64,000 nucleotides of DNA from Streptomyces sp. MZ04 (GTDB lineage: Bacteria > Actinomycetota > Actinomycetes > Streptomycetales > Streptomycetaceae): positions 1-64,000 of the forward strand of contig NZ_SRIC01000009.1 in NCBI RefSeq assembly GCF_004684775.1, read 5' to 3'. The notes under the pieces were generated by a model. The model made no database searches. It saw only the letters and a program-made list of their open reading frames with translations, and had not been told where the DNA came from. Shown here in pieces: positions 2,169-63,910 of the stretch (within the stretch, counting starts at the first letter, position 1; every line of letters starts with the position of its first letter). A program made the translations under genes and the position numbers.

Positions 2169-3326
2169 ATGACAGTGCAGGACAAGGGCGTTCACGGTCC
2201 GCTCGCCGGAGTGCGGGTGGTGGAGCTCGCGGGGATAGGGCCCGGCCCGTTCGCCGCCATGCTCCTGGCCGACCTCGGCGCCGATGTCGTACGCGTCGAC
2301 CGGCCGCGCGGCGGCGGGGGGCTCGTGATCACCTCCGAGTACGACATCACCAACCGCAACAAGCGGTCCGTGATCATCGACCTCAAGGCGGCGGACGGCG
2401 CGGACCGCCTCCTCGACCTGGTCGAACGCGCCGACGTCCTCATCGAGGGCTACCGTCCCGGCGTCGCCGAGCGCCTGGGTGTCGGGCCGGACGACTGCCA
2501 CGCCCGCAACCCGAAGCTCGTCTACGGACGGATGACCGGCTGGGGGCAGGAGGGCCCGCTCGCCCAGCGTGCCGGGCACGACATCGGATACATCGCGATC
2601 ACCGGCACCCTCGGCATGATCGGCTCCCCCGACGAGGCGCCCACCATCCCGGCGAACCTCATCGGCGACTTCGCGGGCGGCTCGCTCTACCTGGTCGTCG
2701 GCATCCTCGCCGCGCTCAACCACGCGCGCGTGCACGGCACCGGGCAGGTCGTGGACGCCGCGATCGTCGACGGCACCGCGCACCTCACCTCGCTGATCCA
2801 CGGCATGCTCGCGGCCGGCGGCTGGCAGGACCGGCGGGGCTCCAACCTCCTGGACGGCGGCTCCCCGTTCTACGGCAACTACGAGACCGCGGACGGCGAG
2901 TACATGGCCGTCGGCGCTCTGGAGCAGCAGTTCTACGACGAGTTCATCGCGCTGCTCGGACTGCCGGACGAGGCGCCGCCGCGCAAGGACGTCGCGCGCT
3001 GGGCCGAGCTGCGGGAGGCCGTCGCGGCCCGCTTCAAGGCGCGTACGCGCGACGAGTGGACGGCCGTCTTCGAAGACACCGACGCGTGTGTGGCGCCGGT
3101 GCTCTCGCTGCGCGAGGCCCCGGGACACCCGCACCTCGCCGCCCGCGGCACCTTCGTCGACCACGGCGGGATCACCCAGCCCGCCCCCGCGCCCCGCTTC
3201 TCAGCGACCCCGACGGAGATCCGCCGCGGCCCCGCCAAGCCCGGCGCCGACACCGCGGACGTGGCCCGCGACTGGGACGTACCGGCGCTCGCCCCGAGCG
3301 ACGTACCGACGAAGGAAGCCGACTGA
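2169..3326 (+). CDS. mcr: CoA-transferase family III protein, alpha-methylacyl-CoA racemase type
   Basis: A 385-residue CaiB/BaiF-fold protein. The N-terminus, PLAGVRVVELAGIGPGPFA then LLADLGADVVRVDRP, is characteristic of alpha-methylacyl-CoA racemases, which interconvert the 2R and 2S methyl-branched acyl-CoAs so that 2S can enter beta-oxidation. Residues matching the racemase catalytic set are visible: His in AQRAGHDIGY (about 136), Asp in GDFAGG (about 166), and an acidic residue in the YGNYETADGEY region. ATG 2169 is preceded by GAGGTGGGGG. The gene heads a same-strand run with an LLM oxidoreductase, acyl-CoA dehydrogenase, thiolase and FadB, which supports use on branched or isoprenoid acids. 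A formyl- or other CoA-transferase role is not excluded. Confidence 0.82.
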   Translation: MTVQDKGVHGPLAGVRVVELAGIGPGPFAAMLLADLGADVVRVDRPRGGGGLVITSEYDITNRNKRSVIIDLKAADGADRLLDLVERADVLIEGYRPGVAERLGVGPDDCHARNPKLVYGRMTGWGQEGPLAQRAGHDIGYIAITGTLGMIGSPDEAPTIPANLIGDFAGGSLYLVVGILAALNHARVHGTGQVVDAAIVDGTAHLTSLIHGMLAAGGWQDRRGSNLLDGGSPFYGNYETADGEYMAVGALEQQFYDEFIALLGLPDEAPPRKDVARWAELREAVAARFKARTRDEWTAVFEDTDACVAPVLSLREAPGHPHLAARGTFVDHGGITQPAPAPRFSATPTEIRRGPAKPGADTADVARDWDVPALAPSDVPTKEAD

Positions 3327-58702: not shown

Positions 58703-60607
58703 ATGACCATTCTGGACACCATTCGGGGGCCGCGCGATCTGAAGGCGCTGACCGAGGCCGAGCTCGACGAACTGGCCGAGGAGATCCGGGAGTTCCTGGT
58801 GCACGCGGTCGCCAGAACCGGCGGCCATCTCGGGCCCAATCTGGGGGTGGTGGAACTCTCCATCGCCCTCCACCGGGTCTTCGAGTCGCCGGTCGACCGC
58901 ATCGTCTGGGACACCGGCCACCAGAGCTACGTACACAAACTGCTCACCGGCCGGCAGGACTTCTCCAAGCTGCGCGGCAAGGGCGGCCTCTCCGGCTATC
59001 CCTCGCGCGCGGAGTCCGAGCACGACATCGTCGAGAACAGCCACGCTTCCACCGCGCTCGGCTGGGCCGACGGCCTGGCCAAGGCGCGCCAAGTCCTGGG
59101 CGAGCGCGGGCACGTGGTCGCCGTCATCGGGGACGGCGCGCTCACCGGCGGCATGGCGTGGGAGGCGCTGAACAACATCGCGGCCGCGAAGGACCGGCCG
59201 CTGATCATCGTCGTGAACGACAACGAGCGCTCGTACGCCCCGACGATCGGCGGCCTCGCGAACCACCTCGCCACGCTGCGTACGACCGACAGCTATGAGC
59301 GGGTGCTCGCCTGGGGCAAGGACATACTCCAGCGCACACCCGTCATCGGTCACACCGTGTACGAGTCGTTGCACGGCGCCAAGAAGGGCTTCAAGGACGC
59401 CTTCGCGCCGCAGGGCATGTTCGAGGACCTGGGGCTCAAGTACGTCGGGCCGATCGACGGGCACGACGTCGGCGCCGTCGAGTCGGCGCTGCGACGCGCG
59501 AAACGCTTCCACGGCCCCGTCCTGATCCACTGCCTCACCGAGAAGGGGCGCGGCTATGAACCCGCGCTCGCGGACGAGGCCGACCGGTTCCACACGGTCG
59601 GTGTGATGGACCCCCTCACCTGCGAGCCGCTCGCGCCGTCCAACGGCCCTTCCTGGACTTCGGTGTTCGGCGACGAGATCGTCCGCATCGGGGCCGAGCG
59701 CCAGGACGTCGTGGCGATCACGGCGGCCATGCTCGGACCGGTCGGCCTGTCGAAGTTCGCCGAGGCCTACCCCGACCGGGTGTGGGACGTCGGGATCGCC
59801 GAGCAGCACGCCGCGGTGTCGGCGGCCGGGCTCGCGACCGGAGGACTGCACCCCGTCGTGGCGCTCTACGCCACCTTCCTCAACCGGGCCTTCGACCAGC
59901 TCCTGATGGACGTGGCACTGCACGAGTGCGGGGTCACCTTCGTCCTCGACCGGGCCGGGGTCACCGGCGTCGACGGTGCGTCCCACAACGGCATGTGGGA
60001 CATGTCGATCCTCCAGGTCGTGCCGGGGCTGCGGATCGCCGCGCCGCGCGACGCCGACCAACTGCGGGCGCAGCTGCGGGAGGCGGTCACCGTGGACGAC
60101 GCGCCGACGCTCCTGCGCTTCCCCAAGGAGTCGGTGGGGCCCGCGATCCCCGCCGTCGACCGGATCGGCGGCATGGACGTGCTGGCTCAAGACCCGGACC
60201 CGGACGTGCTGTTGGTGGCGATCGGCGTGATGGCGCCCGTCTGTCTGCGGGCCGCCGAGCTGCTGCGGGAGCGGGGGCTCGGCTGCACCGTGGTCGACCC
60301 GCGCTGGGTCAAGCCGGTCGACGCCGAGCTGCCGGGTCTCGCCGCCCGGCACCGGGTCGTGGGCGTCGTCGAGGACAACAGCCGGGCGGCGGGCGTCGGT
60401 GCCGCGGTGGCGCTGGCGCTCGGCGAGGCCGAAGTCGACGTACCCGTACGGCGGTTCGGCATCCCCGAGCAGTTCCTCGCCCACGCCAAGCGGGGCGAGG
60501 TGCTCGCGGACCTCGGCCTGACGCCGGTCGAGATCGCGGGGCGGATCAGCGCCACGCTGGCAGCCAAGGAGAGCGCCACACCGGCAGCCAAGGAGAAGGA
60601 CGTATGA
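58703..60607 (+). CDS. dxs: 1-deoxy-D-xylulose-5-phosphate synthase
   Basis: A 634-residue thiamine-diphosphate enzyme, first step of the MEP pathway (pyruvate + glyceraldehyde 3-phosphate). [18 protein letters not shown] (residues 38-55), [16 protein letters not shown] with the ThDP/Mg motif (about 148-163), and the transketolase central region [17 protein letters not shown] (about 362-378) are all present. The C-terminus has a short repeat ([15 protein letters not shown]). ATG 58703 follows GAGAGGGGG. The stop overlaps the aminotransferase ATG by 4 bp. With ispG it supplies precursor locally for hopanoids. Confidence 0.95.
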
Positions 60608-61989
60608 CCAAGGAGTTCGACCTCGGCAGACTCCTCGCCGAGCGGGGCGCCGAGCGCTACGACCTGCATGCGCGGCACCTGAACCACCAGCTGCCGCGGA
60701 TGCTGCACACCATCGGCTTCGACAAGGTCTACGAACGGGCCGAGGGCGCGTACTTCTGGGACGCGGACGGCGACGACTACCTCGACATGCTCGCGGGCTT
60801 CGGCGTGATGGGGCTCGGCCGGCACCACCCCGTCGTCCGCAAGGCGCTGCACGACGTCCTGGACGCCTCGCTCGCCGACCTGACGCGCTTCGACTGCCAG
60901 CCGCTGCCCGGCCTGCTCGCCGAGCAACTCCTCACGCACAGCCCGCACTTGGACCGGGTGTTCTTCGGCAACAGTGGTACGGAGGCCGTCGAGACGGCGC
61001 TGAAGTTCGCGCGGTACGCGACGGGGAAGCCGCGGGTGCTCTACTGCACGCACGCCTTCCACGGCCTGACCACCGGATCGCTCTCGGTCAACGGCGAGAG
61101 CGGATTCCGGGACGGCTTCGCGCCGCTGCTGCCCGACACGGCGATCCCGCTCGGCGATCTGGACGCCCTGGCGAAGGAGCTGAAGCAGGGCGACGTCGCC
61201 GGGCTCATCGTCGAGCCCATCCAAGGCAAGGGCGTGCACGAGACGCCGCCCGGATATCTGCGCGCCGCCCAGGAGTTGCTGCACCGGCACAAGGCGCTGC
61301 TCATCGCCGACGAGGTGCAGACCGGCCTCGGCAGGACCGGCGACTTCTACGCGTACCAGCACGAGGAGGGCGTCGAGCCGGACCTGCTGTGCGTCGCGAA
61401 GGCGCTGTCGGGCGGCTATGTGCCGGTCGGCGCGACGCTCGGCAAGGACTGGATCTTCAAGAAGGTCTTCTCGTCCATGGACCGGGTGCTCGTGCACTCG
61501 GCGAGCTTCGGCTCCAACGCGCAGGCGATGGCGGCCGGGCTCGCGGTCCTTTCCGTCATGGACGACGAGAAGGTCGTCGAGAACGCCCGGGTGACCGGGG
61601 AGCTGCTCAGGACCCGGCTCGCCGCGCTCGTCGACCGCTATGAGCTCCTGAGCGAGGTGCGCGGCCGCGGCCTCATGATCGGCATCGAGTTCGGGCGGCC
61701 CAAGTCCCTGAAGCTGCGCGGGCGTTGGACGATGCTGCAGGCGGCGCGCAAGGGTCTTTTCGCGCAGATGGTGGTCGTGCCGCTGCTGCAGAAGCACCGC
61801 ATCCTCACGCAGGTCTCCGGTGACCATCTGGAGGTCATCAAGCTGATCCCGCCGCTGATCATCGGGGAGCGCGAGGTGGACCGGTTCGTCGATGCCTTCA
61901 CCGCGGTGATGGACGAGGCGCACAGCGGCGGCGGTCTGATGTGGGACTTCGGCAGGACGCTGGTGAAGCAGGCGGTCGCGAACCGCTGA
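60604..61989 (+). CDS. PLP-dependent class III aminotransferase (probable hopanoid aminotransferase)
   Basis: A 461-residue class III (ornithine/acetylornithine type) aminotransferase. [18 protein letters not shown] (about residues 120-137) binds PLP phosphate, [14 protein letters not shown] (about 235-248) has the PLP Asp, and [14 protein letters not shown] holds the Schiff-base Lys266. It is translationally coupled to dxs at the end of the operon. In S. coelicolor the equivalent gene is thought to make aminobacteriohopanetriol, like HpnO of other bacteria; here that role is inferred from position. A 72-bp gap with two palindromes leads to the regulator gene. Confidence 0.88.
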
Positions 61990-62006
61990 GGCACCCATCG
62001 GGTGGT

Positions 62007-62041
62007 TTGCCTCTGAGGCAAGAAAGTTGCCTCGGAGGCAA
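62007..62041. promoter_or_regulatory. Twin palindromic operator for the XRE-cupin regulator
   Basis: Two 15-bp palindromes, TTGCCTCTGAGGCAA (62007-62021) and TTGCCTCGGAGGCAA (62027-62041), differ only at the central base. Their starts are 20 bp apart, about two helical turns, placing bound dimers on one face. The second ends 20 bp before ATG 62062, so they overlap the expected promoter. The obvious candidate ligand is the adjacent regulator. Confidence 0.7.
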
Positions 62042-62061
62042 GGGCCTGGCTCAATCGAGGT

Positions 62062-62703
62062 ATGAGCCCTGCCGAGCCGGAGCCGGTCGACCCCGAGGCC
62101 GCCGAACCGCTGCCCGCCGTCGCGCCGCAACTGCGTGACCTGCGACGACGTGCCGCCCTCACGCTGGAGGCCGCGGCCCGCAGCGCCGGGCTCTCGCCCG
62201 CCCATCTCTCCCGCCTGGAGACCGGGCGGCGCCAGCCGTCGCTGCCGATGCTGCTCGCGCTCGCCCGCACCTACGGTACGACGGTCTCGGAGCTCCTGGG
62301 TGAGACCCCCGCGGACCGGGACGCGATCGTCCGCGCCGCCGGCATGGAGCCGACGCGGGCGGGCGGCTGGACCTACTGGCAGGCCGGGGCCCCGGCGCGC
62401 GGCATGCAGGCGCTGCGGGTGCATGTGCCGCACGGCGCGCAGGGCGACATCGTGCGCGTCCATCCCGGCGAGGAGTGGCTGTACGTCCTGAAGGGGCGGC
62501 TTCGGCTGCGGCTCGGCGACGCCACGTACACCCTCGAACCCGGGGACAGCGCGCACTTCGACTCGCTCACCCCGCACCGGATCGCCGCGGCCGACCGGCT
62601 CGGTGCCGATCTTCTCTTCGTCCACACCCTGCTGCAGAGCCCCGCCACCGCACTGTGCCTCGGCGGGACCCCGCAGAGCCCCACTCTGAGAGACCCGCGA
62701 TGA
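62062..62703 (+). CDS. XRE-family regulator with C-terminal cupin domain
   Basis: A 213-residue regulator. Residues about 20-78 form an XRE helix-turn-helix (LRDLRRRAALTLEAAARSAG, LSPAHLSRLETGRRQPSLPM). Residues about 110-195 are a cupin barrel (VHPGEEWLYVLKGRLRLRLG and LEPGDSAHFDSLTPHRI, with His and Glu residues suited to metal or ligand binding). Such proteins usually sense a small molecule. ATG 62062 lacks a clear ribosome site and may be leaderless. Twin palindromes directly upstream suggest autoregulation. It lies just after the hopanoid aminotransferase and is coupled by ATGA to a small membrane protein gene. Confidence 0.9.
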   Translation: MSPAEPEPVDPEAAEPLPAVAPQLRDLRRRAALTLEAAARSAGLSPAHLSRLETGRRQPSLPMLLALARTYGTTVSELLGETPADRDAIVRAAGMEPTRAGGWTYWQAGAPARGMQALRVHVPHGAQGDIVRVHPGEEWLYVLKGRLRLRLGDATYTLEPGDSAHFDSLTPHRIAAADRLGADLLFVHTLLQSPATALCLGGTPQSPTLRDPR

Positions 62704-62906
62704 CGGAACCTGAAGCGCAGCAGCCGGACCAGGGCCAGGAACAGGGCCGAGAACAGGGCCGAGACCGCTCTGCTCGCAGGGTCAAGTCCATGGAGGAGAA
62801 GTTCCCGCGGGGACTCTGGGTGCGGCTGATCGTCTACGTCGCGGTCGGCCACCTCTTCGCGGCCTTCATCTACCTGCTCTTCTCGCTGGGCGCGCAGAAC
62901 CAGTAG
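62700..62906 (+). CDS. Small single-pass membrane protein (DUF6126-like)
   Basis: A 68-residue protein. The N-terminal 40 residues are hydrophilic with Gln/Gly/Arg repeats (QGQEQGREQGRDRS), followed by KFPRGLWVRLIVYVAVGHLF and a single transmembrane helix (about residues 44-63). It resembles small Streptomyces proteins found next to XRE-cupin regulators (DUF6126, to my recollection). ATG overlaps the regulator stop (ATGA), so both are made together. A role as target or anchor of the regulator is possible; nothing in the sequence shows function. Confidence 0.82.
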   Translation: MTEPEAQQPDQGQEQGREQGRDRSARRVKSMEEKFPRGLWVRLIVYVAVGHLFAAFIYLLFSLGAQNQ

Positions 62907-62921
62907 CGCTGGTCCGGAGTC

Positions 62922-63728
62922 CTAGTCCAGCAGGTGCGACCGCAGCCGCTCGCGGGTCTCGGGGGCGACCTTGAGGCCCTCGGTGAGGTAGGTCTCCGTG
63001 TCGCCCCAGGTCTGGTCGATGGTCTCGAAGGCGGCCGACAGATAGGTGGCGCGGGCCTCGAAGAGCGGGCTGAGCAGCGCCATGACCTCGGGGGACATCG
63101 CGTCGGGGGAGCTGTCGCTGCGGTGCACCTTGTAGCGGCGGTGGGTGGCGTTCGACTCCAGGTAGTCCGCCTCGATGGCGTCGCGCTCGACGCCGACGGC
63201 GAGCAGCGTGACGGCTATGGAGAGGCCCGCGCGGTCCTTGCCCGCGGCGCAGTGCATCAGGGCGGGCACGCTGTCGCCCGCGATGTCGTGCAGCACGCGG
63301 CTGTGCTCGCCGGTGCGCTCCTTGATGATCGTGCGGTACGACGACGCCATGCGGTTCGCGGCCTGGCCGTCGTCGAGCGCCGCGCGCAGCTGGTCCAGAT
63401 CGCCCTCGCGCACCATCTGCCAGAACTCGGCGCCGTCGGCCGGGTCGGTCAGCGGCAGATTCACATTGCGTACGCCGGGCAGCGTGACGTCCGGGCCTTC
63501 GAGCCGCTGGTCGGCCGCGTTGCGGAAGTCGAAGATCGTGTGCAGGCCCAGCGACGAGAGGAACGCGGAGTCGGCCTCCGTGGCGTGCGCGAGGTGACCG
63601 CTGCGGAAGAGCCGGCCCTGCCGGACCCGGCGGCCGTCCATCGTCGGAAGTCCGCCCACATCACGGAAGTTGCGGACTCCGGTCAGCTCGGGCTCCGACA
63701 GCTCGGTCGGCGGGACTTGCTGCGTCAC
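62922..63728 (-). CDS. MptpB-like tyrosine/lipid phosphatase
   Basis: A 268-residue Cys-dependent phosphatase. The P-loop is MHCAAGKDRAGL with nucleophile Cys160 and the Lys-Asp-Arg signature of MptpB-type enzymes, which act on phosphotyrosine, phosphoserine and phosphoinositides. The N-terminal GVRNFRDVGGLPTMDGRRV (about residues 16-34) and LFRSGHL are family hallmarks. GTG 63728 has GGAGGAG 6 nt upstream; an upstream ATG in the frame has none. No signal peptide is present. It converges on the small membrane protein gene with a 15-bp gap. Confidence 0.9.
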   Translation of the reverse strand: MTQQVPPTELSEPELTGVRNFRDVGGLPTMDGRRVRQGRLFRSGHLAHATEADSAFLSSLGLHTIFDFRNAADQRLEGPDVTLPGVRNVNLPLTDPADGAEFWQMVREGDLDQLRAALDDGQAANRMASSYRTIIKERTGEHSRVLHDIAGDSVPALMHCAAGKDRAGLSIAVTLLAVGVERDAIEADYLESNATHRRYKVHRSDSSPDAMSPEVMALLSPLFEARATYLSAAFETIDQTWGDTETYLTEGLKVAPETRERLRSHLLD

Positions 63729-63910
63729 GGGGGCTCCTCCAGTCCGGCCGCCGGCGTTGCTCGCCGGTGGGGTGCGACTTCGACGATACGACATGGGTTC
63801 CTGGGGCAATCACTGCCGGTGCATGAGCGTTGCCTCACAGGTGATGCCGCCCCGATGATGTGCGTACACGCGCGTGCCTGTCGGTATCAGGTCGAATCTG
63901 TGGGGGACTG

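Follow-up and report, generated by a model that had tools for sequence, protein, structure and literature searches.

Twin palindromes before a Streptomyces XRE-cupin regulator gene: a candidate tandem operator whose two copies may also pair as an RNA hairpin

Why do two palindromes that differ only in their center base stand side by side before the gene of an XRE-cupin regulator, directly behind a hopanoid cluster? The question is raised by positions 62007-62041 of the window, i.e. the whole stretch of 64,000 nucleotides from Streptomyces sp. MZ04 that was analyzed. The answer favored here, by a slight inclination, is that these 35 bases form one element with two roles: a tandem autoregulatory operator of the regulator gene and an RNA hairpin in the transcript of the upstream gene hpnO. 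The operator role taken alone is quite probable, judging from the position and conservation of the palindromes. A plain autoregulatory operator would be ordinary; here two constraints appear to act on one short element, and they can be separated by comparison. The features of the locus are the following.

60604-61989, + strand: class-III aminotransferase gene, called hpnO (family match; 171 of 209 relatives have it upstream in the same direction)
62007-62021, + strand: copy 1 of the candidate operator, TTGCC-TCTGA-GGCAA, TTGCCTCTGAGGCAA, also the left arm of the hairpin (read from the sequence; half-sites conserved in orthologues)
62022-62026, + strand: gap GAAAG of 5 bases, the hairpin loop (read from the sequence)
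62027-62041, + strand: copy 2 of the candidate operator, TTGCC-TCGGA-GGCAA, TTGCCTCGGAGGCAA, also the right arm of the hairpin (read from the sequence; half-sites conserved)
62007-62041, + strand: 35-base hairpin of 15 bp, one of them G-U and 14 Watson-Crick; its five central pairs show covariation between copies 1 and 2
62027-62032, + strand: predicted -35 hexamer TTGCCT, inside copy 2
62050-62055, + strand: predicted weak -10 hexamer CTCAAT, 17 bp after the -35
62062-62703, + strand: XRE-cupin regulator of 213 aa (domain matches)
62700-62906, + strand: DUF6126 (PF19621) membrane protein of 68 aa (family match; 3' of the regulator in 197 of 209 relatives)

The aminotransferase gene ends 17 nt before copy 1 and closes a cluster that also contains squalene-hopene cyclase, HpnH, ispG and dxs; from its position, we take it to be hpnO. 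On the other side, the DUF6126 reading frame begins before the regulator gene has ended, so that the two are probably co-transcribed. DUF6126 occurs in two to four copies in some genomes, and part of this family thus lives elsewhere. In the open-access literature searched, DUF6126 occurs in no paper, and the searches turned up no description of the twin element. In the regulator, three domains scored above their cut-offs (PF13560 at residues 21-78, PF01381 at 24-78 and PF07883 at 119-186), and the combination of an XRE-type HTH and a cupin in one protein places it, on its domains, among the XRE-cupin factors. Seven residues (H134, E137, E138, H165, D167, H172 and H188) are kept in at least 97% of 141 orthologues, which makes a metal or small ligand plausible. 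The curated full-length families are distant. The best of them is PuuR (NCBIfam NF007408, residues 21-178), yet its 35.4 bits fall far below the 211-bit cut-off, and nothing points to putrescine. Relatives in the PDB cover mostly the HTH portion, with 1y9q alone spanning residues 20-178. Among the named proteins related to the regulator, all of the best 80 but one ("Actinobacteria bacterium OK074") are from Streptomyces.

The original prediction had described two palindromes, 20 bp apart and distinguished by their center base, over the expected promoter, with a symmetry far above chance. Both coordinates and sequences were confirmed: the palindromes start 20 bp apart, the gap measures 5 bp and the center base is the sole difference. 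Beyond what the original prediction noted, each is also the reverse complement of the other. The 64-kb window has no other match with at most two mismatches, and dinucleotide shuffles of the window gave two or more such matches in 3 of 100 cases (mean 0.20, largest 3). Throughout the 9.1-Mb genome, the exact TTGCCTC-N-GAGGCAA is found as copies 1 and 2 only (reversed control: 0). At two mismatches or fewer the motif yields 9 genomic matches versus 10 for the reversed control, so that only the exact pair stands out genome-wide. The proposal of an independent unit was supported, as a local unit, since the window holds no further site within two mismatches and the genome no other exact one.

Exact cores occur nine times in the genome besides the pair, versus once for the reversed control; all of these nine except one were inspected for reading frames only. 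The exception belongs to a paralogue, an XRE-cupin protein of 39% identity, where TTGCC-GAAGC-GGCAA (TTGCCGAAGCGGCAA, G000:C247:2226-2240, L311) lies just 5' of the in-frame ATG. This site fits a half-site common to both regulators. The only single-mismatch site in the genome (L003) was set aside; it lies within reading frames. Near the end of the window, TTGCCTCACAGGTGA at 63830-63844 has three mismatches to the motif and lies 5' of a phosphatase gene on the - strand; it may be due to chance.

Orthologues, defined as matches to the regulator at E 1e-45 or better, were found in 141 of the 150 congeneric genomes. Each of the 141 has the site on its 5' side at three mismatches or fewer (67 exact, 60 with one, 13 with two and 1 with three). 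The twin, i.e. both copies within three mismatches and 20 or 21 bp apart, is present in 128, while the second copy is degenerate in 13. In shuffled 150-bp regions, a single site was met in 23 of 2820 cases and a twin in 0 of 2820. The conservation 5' of orthologues that the original prediction had named as its check was thus borne out. Of the 141, 61 have all ten fixed bases intact in both copies, and 123 have them intact in copy 1. The commonest gap among the relatives is GAAAT, and the gap is 6 bases long in 13 of 141. Searched for across whole genomes, the exact 15-mer is present in 71 of 150 (reversed control: 1) and a looser twin pattern in 123 (reversed control: 0); among the matches listed, at least nine looser twins lie away from the orthologue.

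An order-level set of 197 genomes, mostly of the same genus, contained the orthologue at E 1e-30 in 173, from two of six genera. In the single genome of the second genus, the regulator is 60% identical, copy 1 is exact and copy 2 degenerate, and the upstream neighbor is a different, divergent frame. Two genomes speak against the operator reading. In G097 (L170), the regulator between hpnO and DUF6126 has diverged and contains two stops; in G021 (L306), there is no regulator match between these two genes. The twin is intact in both genomes, and its centers are fully complementary. The regulator between hpnO and DUF6126 also appears broken in G085 (L279).

An exact single site away from the orthologue was observed in 5 of the 150 genomes (L168, L169, L171, L172 and L173). 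By eye, four of these loci (L169, L171, L172 and L173, near position 3001) display one exact palindrome beside a flavin-monooxygenase-like frame. These neighbors are candidates for a second target, or the palindrome may be the site of another regulator.

The placement of the palindromes points to the regulator's own promoter, in agreement with the original prediction, as copy 2 overlaps the predicted -35 box. The regulator ATG at 62062 lies 55 bases past the start of copy 1. The predicted -10 ends 6 nt 5' of this ATG, and transcription is predicted to start at its A, i.e. leaderless. For S. lividans, the passages on leaderless transcripts in PMC8079986 give a share of 17% of transcripts, -35 and -10 boxes 16.5 nt apart on average, and a -10 located about 6 nt before the start. 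There, 94.5% of the -10 boxes have an A at their second position. CTCAAT is unlike TAnnnT in that it is without this usual A, and the promoter therefore stays a prediction; a consensus promoter scan left CTCAAT uncalled and called no promoter at the locus. In one group of relatives the -10 position reads TATACC.

The distance to the gene is well kept. In 112 of 141 orthologues copy 1 starts 55-57 nt 5' of the first in-frame start codon; in 28 this codon is 34-48 nt from copy 1, and in 1 none was found. For 101 of 103 loci, the hpnO stop and the element are separated by 2-360 nt, the remaining two giving odd negative values. The twin-to-start-codon distance is hence kept, whereas the hpnO-stop distance varies.

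The second role is suggested by the way in which the copies change. In copy 1, positions 1-5 and 11-15 hardly vary across the 141 orthologues, whereas positions 6-10 do; the center of copy 2 is more variable still. Inside one copy, complementarity is not raised at 6-10 and 7-9 (z -3.2 to 0.9). From one copy to the other (primes for copy 2), it is raised, with z values of 5.0 for 6-10', 4.4 for 7-9', 7.0 for 8-8', 3.0 for 9-7' and 2.2 for 10-6'. Outside the center, pair 4-12' reached a z of 6.8 from few variable taxa, so the covariation is not strictly central. Flanks and gap showed no cross-copy covariation.

For the analysis on a tree, 80 loci were added and 12 with identical 130-bp stretches dropped, leaving 209 of 221. 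Changes were counted by parsimony on the regulator gene tree, with copy positions 6 and 10 treated as equivalent. According to how ties are resolved, 34 or 36 double Watson-Crick replacements fall on the five cross-copy pairs. Simulations (200 runs) in which these columns evolved independently along that tree gave 12.5 doubles (sd 3.6, maximum 23) versus the 36, under a model without lineages where both copies evolve fast. At the tips, 660 of 1045 pairs are Watson-Crick, versus 564 simulated (sd 27, maximum 629). Control pairs underwent few double replacements: 3 in four within-copy pairs, 0 in four same-position pairs and 4 in 16 other pairs, the latter two sets being weak controls as they are mostly non-complementary by consensus.

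Coincident change per se amounted to 50 versus 33.8 expected, a value reached in 2 of 200 runs. Non-pairing columns can coincide too (1.8-2.9, p 0.0006; 1.7-2.7, p 0.005), and for pairing columns the same test gave p 0.6 at 10-6' and p 0.02 at 8-8'. It is the complementary outcome that stands out; coincident change by itself is unspecific. All five center pairs are matched in 46 of 209 loci, versus 18.8 expected if the pairs were independent. Center pair 8-8' takes the states TA (92), AT (19), GC (7) and CG (6), and pair 10-6' is poorly kept (Watson-Crick 85 of 209, A-C 49, A-G 43). Overall, the tree holds compensatory changes beyond phylogeny, which is what is demanded of an RNA structure.

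What distinguishes RNA from DNA here is the G-U pair. If the + strand RNA pairs, changes that leave G-U should be tolerated over those that leave A-C, and a DNA process predicts no such bias. Among single transitions from a Watson-Crick pair, copy 1 showed 11 changes to G-U per 37.9 opportunities versus 2 to A-C per 67.5 (p 0.0005), and copy 2 showed 60 per 67.5 versus 14 per 37.9 (p 0.002). The excess of G-U over A-C holds in each of the four strata (copy by base type). Elsewhere the matching strand bias stayed near 1: upstream flank 1.10, downstream 0.79, gap 1.27, third codon positions 1.07. When the loci were split by context, those with hpnO upstream gave p 0.0014 for copy 1 and p 0.0008 for copy 2, with 31 double changes on 19.4 tree units. 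In the small set without hpnO, the values were p 0.18 and 0.65, with 5 double changes on 7.6 tree units; 5 of 31 double-change branches lie wholly in such taxa. The pairing signature is thus strongest where the transcript of another gene runs through. Counted at the tips, G-U (96) and A-C (70) both fall below shuffles, a result that is unclear partly because many related taxa share the A-C mismatch at 10-6'. The reading that G-U is not preferred, taken from these counts, was overturned by the branch changes per opportunity, split by context.

The + strand fold of 61987-62062 (76 nt) has an energy of -40.1 kcal/mol and a z of -4.5. Its strong stem, 17 nt past a stop codon, resembles intrinsic terminators and mRNA 3' hairpins. 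The Streptomyces element differs from these in that its arms double as putative protein-binding palindromes and in the absence of a T run: the stem is followed by GGGCCTGGC, and no + strand terminator was called. A search of 61800-63000 against Rfam gave no match up to E 1.

From these comparisons, the following mechanism can be proposed. Each TTGCC-N5-GGCAA would be bound by one XRE-cupin dimer. As copy 2 covers the predicted -35 box, binding would shut off the regulator/DUF6126 operon, and a ligand in the cupin pocket, probably not a hopanoid, would release the repression. Where hpnO lies upstream, a + strand read-through transcript would fold both copies into a single 15-bp hairpin, which may mark the end of the hopanoid transcript or insulate it. 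The half-sites would then be held by protein recognition and the centers by RNA pairing. Nested in this way, one gene's operator would double as another gene's 3' boundary, and the bound regulator could affect hopanoid read-through or ending; we give this extension a little less than an even chance. For the uncharacterized XRE-cupin/DUF6126 pair, the element supplies a motif and a model.

Given an operator, pairing of the + strand RNA is probably the explanation of the center covariation, and copying of one arm from the other is rather unlikely to be. The latter process, template switching at replication, is known to homogenize the arms of inverted repeats and can make paired changes, according to PMC8604942 and PMC8794818. 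As a full account of the locus, an operator only, with centers mirrored by switching and no selection on pairing, is unlikely. Arms that turn reverse-complementary through paired changes are what such repeats and the Streptomyces element have in common. Copying also predicts all-or-none pairing, which the 46 of 209 perfect centers versus 18.8 fit. Double changes occur without hpnO too, two of them (L134 and L145) beside an opposite-strand frame, and three gaps are found in both orientations (AACTT/AAGTT 9+2, ATCTT/AAGAT 2+1 and ACTTT/AAAGT 1+1). However, the commonest gaps, GAAAT and others, were never found inverted, and the branches with two or more double changes (5 versus 2.15 expected) stay within the simulated range. 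Above all, switching explains neither the one-strand excess of G-U over A-C nor the dependence on hpnO, and these branch-level results shift the balance from arm-copying to an RNA hairpin. Arm-copying may still supply some of the double changes. As a warning, operator pairs can display RNA-like covariation.

Granting the operator again, a DNA dyad or some other cause of the covariation is quite unlikely. Selection on the dyad itself, with two dimers forming a tetramer or the arms extruded as a cruciform, would suit the mirrored geometry, the 20-bp spacing and the A-rich gap. It is improbable as an overall reading, as the occurrence of TA, AT, GC and CG at the center pair suits pairing better than letter recognition and the one-strand G-U bias is not predicted. 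That the palindromes are mere chance or shared ancestry without function deserves hardly any credence: the genomes are related, but the shuffles and the reversed controls contradict it, and the half-sites are kept while centers and flanks vary.

There remains the suggestion, made in the original prediction, that the unit responds to hopanoid or isoprenoid status. In its full form, with the regulator/DUF6126 unit sensing these compounds and controlling the hopanoid operon, it is very improbable. The position of hpnO, upstream in 171 of 209 relatives, speaks for it. SCO6770 is presumably the regulator orthologue of S. coelicolor. A copper study places SCO6770 among its hopene biosynthesis entries, with values of 1.6 and 3.1, apparently log2 and fold (PMC6414726). 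PMC2374992 assigns SCO6759-71 to the hopanoid cluster of S. coelicolor and links this cluster to ppGpp. Against such a role, 38 of 141 orthologues have no co-directional hpnO within the 225-546 nt of upstream sequence examined per locus, one of them having hpnO downstream on the opposite strand. HpnH was found above the family cut-off in 32 of these 38 genomes and not in 6, which are 98-100% complete. As regulator and sites are kept in the latter, the unit persists without the pathway, which weakens the hopanoid guess. Apart from the twin, the window has one core with a single mismatch, and it falls within the squalene-hopene cyclase gene; that the motif controls the hopanoid operon was rejected, there being no supporting site in the window.

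The Pseudomonas factors ErfA, PsdR and PauR are XRE-cupin proteins that inhibit neighboring genes via palindromes, as described in PMC7901475. The Streptomyces system resembles these local repressors in the HTH and cupin, the palindrome beside the own gene and the local action, the last of these predicted here from sequence. It differs in the twin spaced 20 bp apart at its own promoter, the DUF6126 partner and the covarying centers; the word "tandem" is absent from the main text of that paper.

Two further groups of loci may be mentioned. L107, L111, L117, L128, L133 and others without hpnO have the gap AACTT, a clean TATACC -10 and mostly weaker cross-copy pairing, as if promoter strength and hairpin traded off in this group. 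A different twin, its TTGCCG-type cores spaced by 21 bp, was observed at L299, L300, L302, L303, L304 and L305. The surroundings of the L299-L305 twins gave no regulator match, and these twins were left out as a control. Their centers are not reverse complements, and those at L300 and L303 precede His-rich proteins.
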